From a virus: a stretch of DNA of 21,533 bases. The translations under genes were made by a program, and so were the position numbers. Location: IMG/VR virus record IMGVR_UViG_3300013100_000034, positions 1 through 21,533 of that record, one strand, 5' to 3'. This document shows positions 16,588-21,432 of the stretch, piece by piece. The notes beneath the pieces are model-generated. The model did not search any database, was not told the DNA's origin, and saw only the letters and a program-made list of their open reading frames with translations. The stretch's first letter is position 1; every line of letters begins with the position of its first letter.

Positions 16588-18159
16588 TTAAAATGGGCTG
16601 ACAAGTTCGATGCTATCTAGCACATCGATTTCTAGCATGTCGCCGGGACGGAAGGTGGCAAGCGGGTCTTCAGTGATGTAACCGATAGGCGCACAGGCCA
16701 TCACGAGAGCGTCAACGAAGTCGGGGGATTTGTCGCCGCGCCTGCGGATGTCCTCTTTGGACTCGATCTGCAGCACGCCATTAGGATACGAGTAGCGAAT
16801 GCCAGTCATTTCCTGCACGAGAATCCCAGCGTCGGAGCTATTATCGCCAACTGGTAGATCAATCATACCACTTCTAAGTTGGTGTTTCAAAGAGTCGTAC
16901 CAATAAGCGCGGGAGTTACGGTGAAGAGTACGGTCTGGTGACTTGGCACCAGCAGTCATTTCAACCACAACATATGGGGTAGGCGCAGTGCGAGCGAGCG
17001 CGGTAAGGCGGTCAACAACACCACCGCCGACACCAACGCCGTCAACACGGACTTGATCGATGTCGTACTCCACCGCTAGCTTATGCACACGGGAAGCTAC
17101 TTCCATTGTGTCCATCGTGGTATACGAAGCAAGGACTTCTACGTGCCCATCGACGTTCATAATGGCTACGGTGCGGTCAGCGCCATAGCGCGCCACGTCC
17201 ACGCCGAGAACCTTGAACGAAGTCGGGGTAGGCTCGATGATATTGGCGCGGCCAATCTCAATCTCTGCCGCACTGAATAGCGAGTCAACCGAAGTCTTGG
17301 GGAACTCAGCGAGTACCTTTGACTGGTAGCGCGGCGAGTCCTCGCCCCACATTTCCTTCTGGTCGGCAACAGTCTGGTGCTGTGGCATACCTGCCAGCAG
17401 ACGCTCCACCTGAGCCGATTTAACCGGGTCGTTCGCGTACTTGGCGCGAAGCTCATCACCCTCATTGGTGAAGTTCGGGGTGTCGAAGGCCGACACAGTG
17501 ATAAGATTCCAGAGGTTCTTGCCCTCGCGGAAGATGCGCCCGAACTCAGTGTTCGGGTCGTCAGGGTTTCCCACAGTCAGGATGCGGTCGAACGAAGCCG
17601 TGGTGATGGCCTCAGCACCCGTGAAAATGGTGGTGGGGATACCGCAGCCCTCGTCAGCGATGACGAACACGCCATCTGGACGGTGGGTACCGTGGAAGCC
17701 GTGGATGTTCTCGTTCGCAGGCTTACGGCCCTCGCCAATAAGCTGATCCGTGGTTCGACCATCAACGGTGACGGGTGCCATCCACTTATCACCAAGGGTT
17801 ACACGGCCTCGGAGGTTGTGCTGGATATGGACCTTGCGGATTTCCTCGAAGAGGAGTGCGTGAATCTGCTGGTACGTAGGCGCGGTGGCCTGCACAATGC
17901 AGTTGTCTCGGGTACTGACCCACCATGCGGAGGCGATAGCACTGATGAACGTCTTGCCAATGGAGTGGCATGACTTGACTGCAGTGCGCTTGTTAGCAGC
18001 GATGGAGCGCAAAATTTCCTTCTGCTTCGACCACAGCACAAGTCCAAGCTCCTCCTCAGCCCAAGCCACAGGATCATTCTTGTAGTTGTACTCCCGCGCT
18101 TCCTTCATCAGCTTCTCCACGGCTGCACGGAGAGAGGTATTAAAGGTGGATGCTGGCAT
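16588..18159 (-). CDS. Terminase large subunit
   Basis: A 523-aa packaging motor. The N-terminal ATPase has a Walker A-like SCHSIGKT at 63-70, in the variant form common in phage terminases. It also has Walker B VFVIADE at 164-170, ending in the acidic pair. An adenine-binding QKEI lies near residue 46. The C-terminal RNase-H-like nuclease has VLGVDVARYGADRT at 318-330 with Asp321, a second acidic site at RVDGVGVGGGVVD (Asp373), and a third near SPDFVDALVMACAP toward the end. It starts at ATG 18159, sharing TAATG with the 55-aa ORF upstream, and is followed 9 bases later by the portal gene. It cuts and translocates DNA into the prohead. Confidence 0.96.
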   Translation of the reverse strand: MPASTFNTSLRAAVEKLMKEAREYNYKNDPVAWAEEELGLVLWSKQKEILRSIAANKRTAVKSCHSIGKTFISAIASAWWVSTRDNCIVQATAPTYQQIHALLFEEIRKVHIQHNLRGRVTLGDKWMAPVTVDGRTTDQLIGEGRKPANENIHGFHGTHRPDGVFVIADEGCGIPTTIFTGAEAITTASFDRILTVGNPDDPNTEFGRIFREGKNLWNLITVSAFDTPNFTNEGDELRAKYANDPVKSAQVERLLAGMPQHQTVADQKEMWGEDSPRYQSKVLAEFPKTSVDSLFSAAEIEIGRANIIEPTPTSFKVLGVDVARYGADRTVAIMNVDGHVEVLASYTTMDTMEVASRVHKLAVEYDIDQVRVDGVGVGGGVVDRLTALARTAPTPYVVVEMTAGAKSPDRTLHRNSRAYWYDSLKHQLRSGMIDLPVGDNSSDAGILVQEMTGIRYSYPNGVLQIESKEDIRRRGDKSPDFVDALVMACAPIGYITEDPLATFRPGDMLEIDVLDSIELVSPF

Positions 18160-18341: not shown

Positions 18342-18866
18342 TTATTTGTACGTGTCATCGGCAGGGTCAAGATACAGCACCTGCTCTACTGCTGCCGTCG
18401 AAGTCTCGGCTACCCACTCGGGCCATGCTTCTAGTTCCTTCTTGGCATCATCGGTAAGCGGTAGGCTCAACACCTTCTGATGCAGCAGACCATACGCCTG
18501 CTTCATCACAGCGAAAAGCTGCAGTGTCTCCTCATCGCTGATGACAGTGAACTCGTGCCTGATAGTCTCCTGATTCAGGTCAAGTAGCTCTGATAGCCTT
18601 TCGAGCGCCTTGATGATGGCCTCGCCGTGCTTGAAGCTTCCAGCCTCCAGCCCTGCCCAAAGGTGTTCGATGATCTTCTCTGTGCGGAGCATGACGATGC
18701 CGCGCATTTCGATTGGGTCGCGCATGGTGGTTGACTCAAGCGCCTCACGCACCATAGCCATTGCCTCGATAGCCTTGATGCCATGCTTTAGCTCAATCTC
18801 TGCATATGACCGACCGCGAATGCGATCATCGAGAATAAGCTGAGTCAATCCATCATTTGCTGTCAT
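18342..18866 (-). CDS. Putative terminase small subunit
   Basis: A 174-aa helical protein as the first gene of the morphogenesis block, two genes before the large terminase. Residues about 17-43 (RGRSYAEIELKHGIKAIEAMAMVREAL) look like a helix-turn-helix. They are followed by long helices at 48-120 that could form the oligomerisation core of a small terminase ring. That arrangement, DNA-binding N-terminus then helical core, fits small terminase subunits, which recognise the packaging site. Sequence similarity is not obvious, so the call rests on position and layout. No proper Shine-Dalgarno site is present: GAGG ends only 2 bases from the ATG, whereas a promoter-like pair ends 6 bases upstream. 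Confidence 0.7.
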   Translation of the reverse strand: MTANDGLTQLILDDRIRGRSYAEIELKHGIKAIEAMAMVREALESTTMRDPIEMRGIVMLRTEKIIEHLWAGLEAGSFKHGEAIIKALERLSELLDLNQETIRHEFTVISDEETLQLFAVMKQAYGLLHQKVLSLPLTDDAKKELEAWPEWVAETSTAAVEQVLYLDPADDTYK

Positions 18867-18910: not shown

Positions 18911-18946
18911 AAAAAGGGCCAGCCGTGGGAGGAGCGGCTGGCCCTT
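18911..18946 (-). terminator. Strong intrinsic terminator downstream of the redoxin gene
   Basis: A perfect 12-bp stem (AAGGGCCAGCCG with CGGCTGGCCCTT), 9-base loop and a run of five T on the minus strand. It ends the redoxin transcript and insulates the morphogenesis operon. The plus strand lacks a T tract. The adjacent 18947-19023 holds only a small 6-bp hairpin (CCCCTG-TTG-CAGGGG at 18957-18971) and no gene. Confidence 0.85.
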
Positions 18947-19023: not shown

Positions 19024-19260
19024 TTAAATGTAAACCGCAAGTCGGTCTGGCACGAAGCCATACCAATGTTCGCCCTCGGAGGTTTCGACAACAGGCACTT
19101 GCATGTAGCCTAGTTCCTTGGTTACATAGTCAAATGCAGCGGCATCCTCGCTAACATCAATCTTGGTGTAGGGGCGCTTACGCTGGTCGAGATATCGGGC
19201 AGTCGCTGTACACTGGACGCAACCGGGCTTACTGTAAATGGTGATATTTGAATTCTTCAT
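19024..19260 (-). CDS. nrdH: NrdH-like glutaredoxin
   Basis: A 78-aa thioredoxin-fold protein. It has IYSKPGCVQCTATARYLD with the redox-active CVQC (Cys14 and Cys17), a cis-Pro in MQVPVVE, and the C-terminal HWYGFVPDRL, which corresponds to the WSGFRPD motif that separates NrdH redoxins from ordinary glutaredoxins. NrdH passes electrons from thioredoxin reductase to class Ib ribonucleotide reductase, supporting dNTP supply during phage replication. No reductase gene is in this window. The gene stands alone between its own promoter and a strong terminator. No Shine-Dalgarno site precedes the ATG, and a TTGACA promoter ends 8 bases upstream, so a leaderless message is likely. Confidence 0.93.
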   Translation of the reverse strand: MKNSNITIYSKPGCVQCTATARYLDQRKRPYTKIDVSEDAAAFDYVTKELGYMQVPVVETSEGEHWYGFVPDRLAVYI

Positions 19261-19268
19261 AGGAGTTT

Positions 19269-19297
19269 AGTTTAACTACGCGCACATTAGGTGTCAA
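19269..19297 (-). promoter_or_regulatory. Promoter of the redoxin gene
   Basis: A perfect TTGACA (19297-19292) is 17 bases from TAAACT (19274-19269, 4 of 6) on the minus strand. The nrdH ATG starts 9 bases after the -10 box, so the mRNA would have no leader or one of a few bases. Confidence 0.65.
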
Positions 19298-19350: not shown

Positions 19351-19379
19351 TTGACAAGCAAAATCGTCGGTGCAATAGT
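19351..19379 (+). promoter_or_regulatory. Promoter of the DGQHR gene
   Basis: A perfect TTGACA (19351-19356) and AATAGT (19374-19379, 4 of 6) are 17 bases apart on the plus strand. Transcription would start near 19386 and give a leader of about 38 bases containing AAGGAGG in front of ATG 19424. It faces away from the redoxin promoter; the -35 boxes are 53 bases apart. Confidence 0.6.
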
Positions 19380-19423
19380 TCATATATCAGCAACACAAAC
19401 CCGAAAATGAAGGAGGCAATAAA

Positions 19424-20770
19424 ATGACCATGTTCGCAACTGTTACAAAGGGAACCACAACTGGAACTGCAACCGCTAAGCCGACCACCACCAACATCAC
19501 GGCCACCAAGCGCAAGGGCACCAAGAGCAAGAAGACGCTCGCCCCTGTGCCGGTGCCTGTGACGGGTTACGAATCGGAGGTTCGTTTCTTCGCCACGCAG
19601 TACAAGCAGGGAGGGCGCACCGTGTACTCTCTCGACTTGTCCATCGCACAGATCGTCGGGCTGATCGCAGCCCCCGATCCTGAGCGACCGCTTCCCGGCA
19701 ACCGCCGTATCCAGCCTGCGCACGCAGCCGCGTTCGGTGCGTACATCCGTGAACACTCCGACTGGATCGCTCCGGCGATCATCCTGCGTGGGCCGAACGC
19801 CTTTGACTTCGCGCCCATCGAAGAAATCAACGGAGCCTCGTTCGGCGTCGTCTCGATCCCGACGCTCGCGGTCCCCGATCTTCACATCCTCGACGGTCAG
19901 CACCGCATCCTTGGGATGCACATGGCGGCTCGTGCGATCACGGAGGAACTTGACAAGGCGCGTGACGGACTGGCACGGGGGCGTAAGGCTGGCGACCAGA
20001 ACCTCACCGCGCACTTTCAGGGCCTCATCAAGGAACTGCAGGCGCAGCGGAAGCGATTCGAGAACGAGCGGGTGACGATACAAGTCTTCATCGAGACTCG
20101 CCAGTTGTCCTACCAGCAGATGTTCTATGATGTCGCGGATAACGCCCTGCCGATTACCGCATCCGTGCGTGCCCGGTATGACGCCCGCAAGATCACGAAC
20201 CGTGTCCTCACCGACGTGCTGGAACAGCCTCTGCTGTCTGGGCGGGTGGATATGGAGCGTGACCGGCTCGGGCGTGCCAACCCGAACCTGCTCTCTGCCA
20301 AGCACGTCGCTGACATTGTGCGTATCATCGCCGTGGGGCTGGAGGGGCGGATCAGTCGTCGCCTTGAGTCCGAGCTTCAGGAAGACGAACTGGTGCAGCA
20401 CACGCGGGCGTTCTTCGACGCGCTGACCGAGGGCTTCCACGAGCTTGAGCAAGTTAAGGATGGCTCACTTTCGCCCATCGAGCTTCGCCAGACTTCGATG
20501 CTCGGGTCACCTGTCACGATCCGGGTTCTCGCCGGGGCATACTACGAGCTTCGCAACAAGGGTTTCGATCACGACATGATCGTACACTACTTCGAGCGGC
20601 TTGACCCCTTTCTGTCGCAGCCTGCCACGCCGCTCCTTGTGGAGCATGCGGGGACGGAGGTATTCGTGCCGGGTGCCCTCGCGCCGAGTTCGCGTCGTCA
20701 GGACTTGAAGGAGTTCCGCAATGCTCTCACGAACTGGGCCGTGGAGGCCCCTAGCTGGCTCGGAGCCTAA
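19424..20770 (+). CDS. DGQHR-domain (DndB-like) protein
   Basis: A 448-aa protein with a strong ribosome site (AAGGAGG, 7-8 bases before the ATG). Residues 1-46 are a Thr/Lys-rich, probably disordered basic tail. The core carries the family hallmarks: NRRIQPAHAAAFGAYIREH at 93-111, LHILDGQHRILGM with DGQHR at 157-161, a helical insertion at about 170-215, and QMFYDVADNALPITASVRARYD at 232-253. This is the DGQHR family that includes DndB of DNA phosphorothioation systems and DpdB of 7-deazaguanine systems, related to the ParB/Srx nucleotide-binding fold. In the dnd system DndB is reported as a regulator. Here no dnd or dpd partner gene is in view. DNA binding or interference with host modification-dependent defence is inference. 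It has its own promoter and terminator, and looks more GC-rich at third positions than its neighbours. Confidence 0.85.
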   Translation: MTMFATVTKGTTTGTATAKPTTTNITATKRKGTKSKKTLAPVPVPVTGYESEVRFFATQYKQGGRTVYSLDLSIAQIVGLIAAPDPERPLPGNRRIQPAHAAAFGAYIREHSDWIAPAIILRGPNAFDFAPIEEINGASFGVVSIPTLAVPDLHILDGQHRILGMHMAARAITEELDKARDGLARGRKAGDQNLTAHFQGLIKELQAQRKRFENERVTIQVFIETRQLSYQQMFYDVADNALPITASVRARYDARKITNRVLTDVLEQPLLSGRVDMERDRLGRANPNLLSAKHVADIVRIIAVGLEGRISRRLESELQEDELVQHTRAFFDALTEGFHELEQVKDGSLSPIELRQTSMLGSPVTIRVLAGAYYELRNKGFDHDMIVHYFERLDPFLSQPATPLLVEHAGTEVFVPGALAPSSRRQDLKEFRNALTNWAVEAPSWLGA

Positions 20771-20776
20771 CCCACA

Positions 20777-20811
20777 AGAATCCCCCTGACTCATAAGGTC
20801 AGGGGGATTCT
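20777..20811 (+). terminator. Long perfect hairpin after the DGQHR gene
   Basis: A perfect 14-bp stem (left arm 20777-20790, right arm 20798-20811) and 7-base loop start 6 bases after the stop codon. Neither strand has a clear T tract (plus ATTCTGCATT, minus ATTCTTGTG), but the symmetric element could stop transcription from both sides, including antisense read-through from the tRNA genes. Confidence 0.65.
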
Positions 20812-20847: not shown

Positions 20848-21432
20848 ATGAGCGGACTCAGCCAAAAGGAAATCAAGGCGCTACTCGACAGCCTAGACGA
20901 ACAAGGCGCTTTACTGTTCAAAGTTAAAAAGGGTGTGCTGGTCAAGTTCCCAGACGGTTCCATGACAACAGTGCACCGAACAAACTCAGATCACCGCAGC
21001 ACTCTGAACATGCGGGCTGTAGTTAAACGAGCGGGGCTAGCATGGCCCTTCGACCATGATAGAAAGGATACCCAGTTGGCTATGAGACTCACACCAGAAC
21101 GCAAAGAGCTACTAATGAAGGCTGTAGAGGAAGCCGGTGATGGCCCCGTCAGTGCGGCAGCCATCGCAGCCAAAGCCGAGGTAGCCGACCCAACAGCGAA
21201 GAATGCGCTTATCCGAGGCGGGTTCGTGCAAGAGCGGCGTGGCGTATGGGTACGCAACAAGCCAGATGCCCTTGAGCCAGCACAGGGGGCATCAGAGCCA
21301 GTCGTGCAGACTGCTGGGGAGCGGAGCTTCATCGATGATGTCGATTCGTGGGTGGTCCCAGTCCCAAAGAAACTTCAGCGGATGGCCGACCTCATGGGGC
21401 TGAGCATCGAAGTCAGGGTGTGGAGGCCCTAG
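20848..21432 (+). CDS. HicA-like / winged-helix two-domain protein of unknown function
   Basis: A 194-aa protein with GAGGAGG before ATG 20848. Residues 1-66 resemble the small HicA (YcfA) RNA-binding fold: an initial helix (SQKEIKALLDSLDEQG), a strand turn with KVKKGVLVKFPDGSMTTVHRTN, then STLNMRAVVKRAGL, equivalent to the 'GTLr.IlkqaGl' end of HicA. The catalytic His of HicA's 'GSH' element is not present at the matching place (GVLVKF), so mRNA interferase activity is doubtful; His43 is the nearest histidine. Residues about 80-136 look like a winged helix (ERKELLMKAVEEAGDG, VSAAAIAAKAEV, TAKNALIRGGFVQERRGVWVR). The C-terminal 50 residues are unassigned. A nucleic-acid-binding regulator is a fair guess; no HicB antitoxin is adjacent. 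Confidence 0.7.
   Translation: MSGLSQKEIKALLDSLDEQGALLFKVKKGVLVKFPDGSMTTVHRTNSDHRSTLNMRAVVKRAGLAWPFDHDRKDTQLAMRLTPERKELLMKAVEEAGDGPVSAAAIAAKAEVADPTAKNALIRGGFVQERRGVWVRNKPDALEPAQGASEPVVQTAGERSFIDDVDSWVVPVPKKLQRMADLMGLSIEVRVWRP

Follow-up and report, generated by a model that had tools for sequence, protein, structure and literature searches.

The known role of DndB is to regulate the phosphorothioation operon that contains it; what its orphan relatives do has no explanation as yet. Salmonella DndB is reported to bind palindromes and thereby repress the operon to which it belongs, with residue Cys29 being important (PMC4507180), and a bacterial DndB-like protein is reported to bind both ATP and GTP (PMC12704722). 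Genes of this kind also occur in viruses. Phage phiCD5763 carries a gene called dndB (PMC5786514), and Salmonella phage SPN1S and the Pseudomonas phages PfAC19 and vB_PpS_SYP have genes annotated as ‘DGQHR’ or ‘DNA-sulfur-modification’ proteins. In actinobacteriophages, DndB and glutaredoxin domains are described as enriched near lsr2 genes (PMC8612146), and so a DndB domain in such a phage is not in itself new. A related motif, DGQQR, is known from SspE and GmrSD/BrxU (DUF262; PMC4619093). In the literature searched on DGQHR and DndB proteins in phages, we found no description of a DGQHR gene at the terminase, or of the small partner gene that we report below.

Here we describe a DGQHR gene in ‘the window’, by which we mean the whole stretch of DNA analyzed: a virus record of 21,533 bases that is a fragment of a phage genome. 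The gene (19424–20770, + strand) encodes a protein of 448 amino acids (aa). This protein shares with DndB a Pfam superfamily and the DGQHR motif, and the DndB profile (TIGR03233) aligns to its residues 206–370. It differs in scoring 37.8 bits against an equivalog cut-off of 328, in having no cysteine at all, and in the lack of any DndC-type gene found with it. Judged by its sequence, it is not a canonical DndB. To the gene of phiCD5763, and to those of SPN1S, PfAC19 and vB_PpS_SYP, it has no or weak sequence similarity. The reading that we favor, with a probability of roughly 0.4, is that it is a stand-alone regulator of the phage, a member of the DndB/ParB-Srx superfamily that binds nucleotides and DNA and works outside any DNA-modification system. 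The phage genes described here offer a compact and testable setting, a phage-only clade at the terminase, in which to study DndB-like function without DNA modification.

Identity and expression signals

The gene is an open reading frame beginning with ATG, and profile searches place its product within the DGQHR family, as a preliminary description of this DNA had proposed. It scores 115 bits against PF14072 (cut-off 29.1) and 78.7 bits against TIGR03187, the DGQHR model (cut-off 58.85), and the DGQHR motif itself (residues 157–161; 19892–19906, + strand) is invariant in 43 aligned sequences. A ribosome-binding site, AAGGAGG, precedes the gene (19410–19416, + strand). The same description had credited the gene with its own promoter, with a hairpin at its end and with an elevated third-position G+C content (GC3), and all three features bear inspection. 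Upstream lies the promoter-like site TTGACA-17-AATAGT (19351–19379, + strand); the promoter scan by itself is non-significant (2 sites versus 1.6 expected from shuffling), and in the alignment TTGACA is shared without change by all four upstream regions of the window's clade (the window and loci L002, L090 and L091). The scan also gave a divergent promoter-like site facing the neighboring glutaredoxin gene (19269–19297, − strand). Downstream is a strong 15-bp hairpin (20777–20811, + strand; −29.4 kcal/mol, z = −6.2), which lacks a T-run and was not flagged by the terminator scan. The GC3 of the gene, 0.753, exceeds that of every other called gene of the window (23 in all, the next being 0.730); that of its homolog in L002, 71% identical, is 0.642, second of 12.

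Domains and predicted fold

An AlphaFold2 model built from the 43 aligned sequences has a mean pLDDT of 89.8 and divides the protein into three parts. Residues 1–37 (19424–19534, + strand) form a Thr/Lys-rich tail, predicted to be disordered (pLDDT < 50), and the net charge over residues 1–49 is +8. A basic, disordered N-terminus had been remarked upon before; it is present in the window protein, but not as a conserved feature of the family. L090 has such a tail, L002 has only 15 residues at that place, and most phage relatives possess an acidic C-terminal extension in its stead. The tail as a conserved DNA-binding device was dismissed as a family feature for this reason. Residues 57–243 (19592–20152, + strand) comprise an N-terminal domain with a predicted ParB/Srx/SspE-like fold and a long helical hairpin, and this domain bears a set of polar residues that is invariant across the alignment. 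Residues 244–448 (20153–20767, + strand) comprise a C-terminal domain that is all-helical in the model; modeled alone, it reaches a pLDDT of 94.6 and has no clear structural match in the PDB.

Foldseek gave no significant match between the window protein model and the PDB. When the candidates were re-scored, SspE came out on top (Z 6.6, 146 residues aligned, rmsd 4.5), and BrxU, Noc, ParB, PadC, KorB and sulfiredoxin were also in the list; the SspE, ParB, Noc and Srx comparisons, at Z 4.3–6.6, fall below the level at which they would stand alone, and unrelated helical proteins have similar Z. We therefore rest the fold assignment on the family link and the structural comparisons together. A structure search of a viral library returned nine matches with E ≤ 0.001, several of them named GmrSD or DUF262. 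Among PDB sequences, the single sequence found no relatives, and a profile gave two matches at chance level. The resemblance to SspE and GmrSD/BrxU extends over residues 62–243 or thereabouts, but neither HNH nor DUF262 was matched in the window protein. It resembles the ParB-CTPase fold proteins (ParB, Noc, KorB and PadC) at Z 4.9–6.0, but has no PF02195 match, and ParA-type genes (PF13614) occur in 0 of 26 virus records; a ParB-type partition function was rejected on these grounds. In Pfam, PF14072 was the sole match to the protein, with neither a helix-turn-helix nor a nuclease domain detected.

Relatives, descent and defense genes

A tblastn search of 50,697 phage records with the window protein found no match at E 1e-5; a search of plasmids gave two. 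Scans for relatives uncovered 33 loci in IMG/VR, while those of bacterial genomes uncovered 99. Eighty of the latter were kept, from which we used the actinobacterial loci L010–L033 and left out L034–L089 (56 weak, mostly Paenibacillus-type matches). The alignment comprises 43 of the 57 members; outside it are the plasmid loci L003 and L004, the bacterial loci L013, L019, L023–L025, L030 and L032, and the near-copies L093, L094, L101, L105 and L108. The tree of these 43 sequences splits 27 from 16 with support of 100/100. The larger, phage clade consists of 25 virus records, the window included, together with L010 and L011; L011 is a prophage, since its DGQHR gene, TerS-like gene and large terminase gene (TerL) lie as a set within a 998 kb contig of Frigoribacterium sp. 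CG_9.8. The sister clade consists of 15 bacterial sequences and L116. Nearest to the window in the tree are L002, L090 and L091.

Between the window and L002, dN/dS is 0.12 for the DGQHR gene, 0.10 for TerL and 0.11 for the portal gene, values to be read with dS saturated. By this sequence measure, the DGQHR gene is under purifying selection much like TerL. Its pairwise identities also follow those of TerL (rho 0.61 over the 231 pairs that 22 loci give; Mantel p 0.001; near-duplicates L100/L101, L104/L105, L107/L108 and L112/L114 included), and the correlation with TerL is lower for portal (0.37), protease (0.32) and capsid (0.20). Compared in this way, the gene is a long-standing one of a single actinobacterial phage lineage. 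It had been suggested that promoter, hairpin and GC3 mark an independently acquired unit. That suggestion fails, because the phage-only clade, the co-divergence with TerL and the stable neighborhood all oppose it, and the raised GC3 recurs in L002; a recent acquisition is contradicted by the same evidence.

The surroundings of the bacterial relatives are varied, and their clade is a scattered one. The relatives in L026 and L029 have DISARM genes nearby, that in L021 has BREX-like genes, and that in the plasmid locus L004 has a Type I R–M set and a Pycsar-type gene; as a raw count, defense genes are found in at least 4 of the 26 bacterial and plasmid loci. Among the matches listed, at least two further neighboring proteins match N6 methylases. 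This check covered 10 proteins and 70 of 71 larger neighbors, the remaining one being among the 10. Beside the DGQHR gene of three Pseudonocardiaceae loci, L012 (7340–7939), L013 and L020, there recur a sigma-70-like gene and a gene of 149–211 aa for which no match was found.

These bacterial surroundings, which are partly defense islands, favor a role in conflict. The protein might, from its own promoter, guard the lysogen against other phages, or shield the phage from modification-dependent defenses of the host, by means of a ParB/SspE-like NTPase core. We regard this as a serious, if somewhat less probable, alternative to the regulator. The foremost named structural matches—SspE, BrxU/GmrSD, Noc and ParB—are in keeping with it, as is the absence of the gene from the named relatives examined. 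So, too, is the presence of a tyrosine or serine integrase in 13 of the 15 virus records that carry a DGQHR gene and exceed 45 kb; none was found in the records of the window, L002, L006 or L090. Defense genes usually turn over fast, however, and the DGQHR gene has diverged in step with TerL and stayed where it is; nor was a nuclease domain matched in Pfam. If a conflict factor it is, then it would represent a prophage defense gene retained over a long time.

Position beside the terminase genes

The left 18 kb of the window holds tail, head, portal and terminase genes, all directed leftward, with TerL (16588–18159, − strand) among them. To the right follow, in order, a gene for 174 aa (18342–18866, − strand), which from its position is the probable small terminase (it matches PHROG 645, ‘Rnase E’, at E 2.4e-9); an NrdH-like glutaredoxin gene (19024–19260, − strand), which is a neighbor in L002 and L090, too, and in several further relatives; the DGQHR gene, which is read from the other strand; an open reading frame of 194 aa; and, at the edge, a tRNA-Gln gene. 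Among the named phage matches listed, the terminase and the portal protein are closest to those of Curtobacterium phage Yappy, with 58.7% and 47.2% identity, respectively.

Genes in the wider set of loci were called with a custom script. Of 57 loci, it placed the DGQHR gene wrongly in six (L024, L032, L092, L093, L094 and L099), and counts of neighborhoods rest for this reason on 51. TerL lies within six genes of the DGQHR gene in 22 of them. In 20 of these 22 terminase-linked loci a single strand carries, in order, the DGQHR gene, a TerS-like gene and TerL, with a small reading frame interposed in four (L096, L109, L114 and L118); ‘TerS-like’ here denotes position and a rough pattern, there being no clear profile match. 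In the window and L002 the DGQHR gene is inverted within an otherwise unchanged neighborhood.

So regular an arrangement, together with the co-divergence of the gene and TerL, could mean that the protein is an accessory of packaging, one that acts by recognizing the phage DNA, or by priming the terminase where packaging begins. We consider this improbable. The terminases of Yappy, Amigo, Molivia, CN1A, Cassita and L006 have no DGQHR gene next to them; the gene is far from TerL in G004 (L091); it is inverted in the window; and the genes called in L010, a member of the phage clade, do not include TerL. From its absence in several named relatives and in L006, it follows that phages such as these can control their packaging genes without it.

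Modification genes

The preliminary description had found no dnd- or dpd-type gene adjoining, and this holds well beyond the neighborhood. There is none among the eight window proteins of the DGQHR stretch in Pfam, nor any PF01507 or PF01702 match across the 21.5 kb fragment. Extended to the window and 25 related virus records, which may be fragments as the window is, the search gave 0 of 26 for the PAPS-reductase/DndC type (PF01507) and 0 of 26 for the TGT/DpdA type (PF01702), while DndC (TIGR03183) occurs in 0 of the 24 bacterial genomes that carry a relative. Dnd or Dpd partners were rejected accordingly. The preliminary description had envisaged a protein that may regulate or decoy a modification-dependent host defense, protect the phage DNA, or partner with modification genes elsewhere. 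That the protein regulates or partners modification genes elsewhere in the phage or host, a notion owed solely to the family name and the DndB precedent, is most improbable given these counts. Its place at the terminase, and the frequent presence of a small partner, make a protein of phage control or of conflict likelier than a stray modification enzyme.

The divergent small gene and the palindrome

In 20 of 25 non-redundant phage loci, a gene of 55–85 aa lies immediately upstream of the DGQHR gene and divergent from it (e.g. in L103, 7668–7844, − strand). With the near-copies L093, L094, L101, L105, L108 and L114 restored, the count is 25 of 31 (L103 and 24 further phage loci), including L114, whose stop-to-stop frame runs on. 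The products share the pattern GGRxVxI...VFL...CxEFDRxxFxxA. Against 21,580 six-frame reading frames of the loci, a hidden Markov model (HMM) of this family gave 28 hits, three of them the same places duplicated, and all at DGQHR genes. The model was seeded from frames beside DGQHR genes and most loci are centered on such genes, so that ‘nowhere else’ applies to these 21,580 frames. The model found no member in any of the 26 bacterial and plasmid loci, nor did it give a hit in the prophage L011, and five members that were tried gave no Pfam match and chance-level PHROGs matches only. By these comparisons of sequence, a small family divergently paired with the DGQHR gene in most phage loci is new here. 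It is absent from the window, L002 and L115–L117, and the sequence of L094 ends too early to show it. A hidden remnant in the window or L002 was also considered; nothing near the gene matched at E up to 20.

Between the two genes, 8 of 20 intergenic regions contain a palindrome within two mismatches of TCGAACN4GTTCGA (control mean 0.36, 500 draws), and 4 of 20 contain one within a single mismatch (control 0.05). The eight are L098 (7831–7846), L099, L102, L106 and a further four; neither the window nor L002 has the palindrome. The sequence resembles the actinobacterial LexA box. LexA as its owner was not upheld, exact copies being present in neither of the two host genomes searched.

A proposed regulator at the packaging genes

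Several lines of evidence converge on the regulator: the PF14072 and TIGR03187 matches, and the ParB/Srx/SspE-like domain with its invariant polar residues; the published precedents of Salmonella DndB repression (PMC4507180) and of ATP and GTP binding (PMC12704722); the position beside the terminase, the co-divergence with TerL and the purifying selection; and the divergent small gene (20 of 25) and palindrome (8 of 20). We infer from these that the protein may bind NTP and DNA, that it may repress, and that the packaging operon may be its target. In such a scheme, the DNA bound by the protein would lie close to its own divergent promoter and to the packaging genes alongside. How firmly the protein holds on would depend on ATP or GTP, and when bound it would keep the packaging genes down, or time them. 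The scheme is weakened by the absence of both palindrome and small gene from the window and L002, and by the lack of a DndB operator, of cysteine and of a helix-turn-helix match. Control through the canonical DndB operator was indeed rejected, no copy of TACGN10CGTA having turned up in the 28 upstream regions searched, the longest of which spanned 260 bases. We favor the regulator over the conflict factor, although sequence alone does not separate the two.

A bolder version of the regulator can be imagined, which we offer as speculation and think unlikely in its entirety: a divergent switch of two genes, carried by phages of this actinobacterial lineage. The DndB-like protein would be a nucleotide-gated repressor that silences the packaging genes in the lysogen, and the tiny divergent gene, driven from the palindrome in response to damage, would encode its antagonist. 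The branch to which the window belongs would then have lost the small gene and the palindrome, flipped the cassette, and kept the NTP-binding protein. Such a switch, if true, would represent a novel way of controlling late genes or lysogeny.

Other features of the window

Between the glutaredoxin and small-terminase genes is a G+C-rich inverted repeat (18917–18945), spotted by eye, which is possibly the end of glutaredoxin transcription. In the region to the right of the terminase, where the window has its tRNA-Gln gene, Yappy, L002 and L006 have long arrays of tRNA genes. The 194-aa open reading frame (20848–21432, + strand) lies directly 3′ of the DGQHR gene and has a good ribosome-binding site. 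Its product matches PHROG families of unknown function weakly, and its residues 5–62 match the PADLOC ‘HicA-like’ model (E 5e-5).
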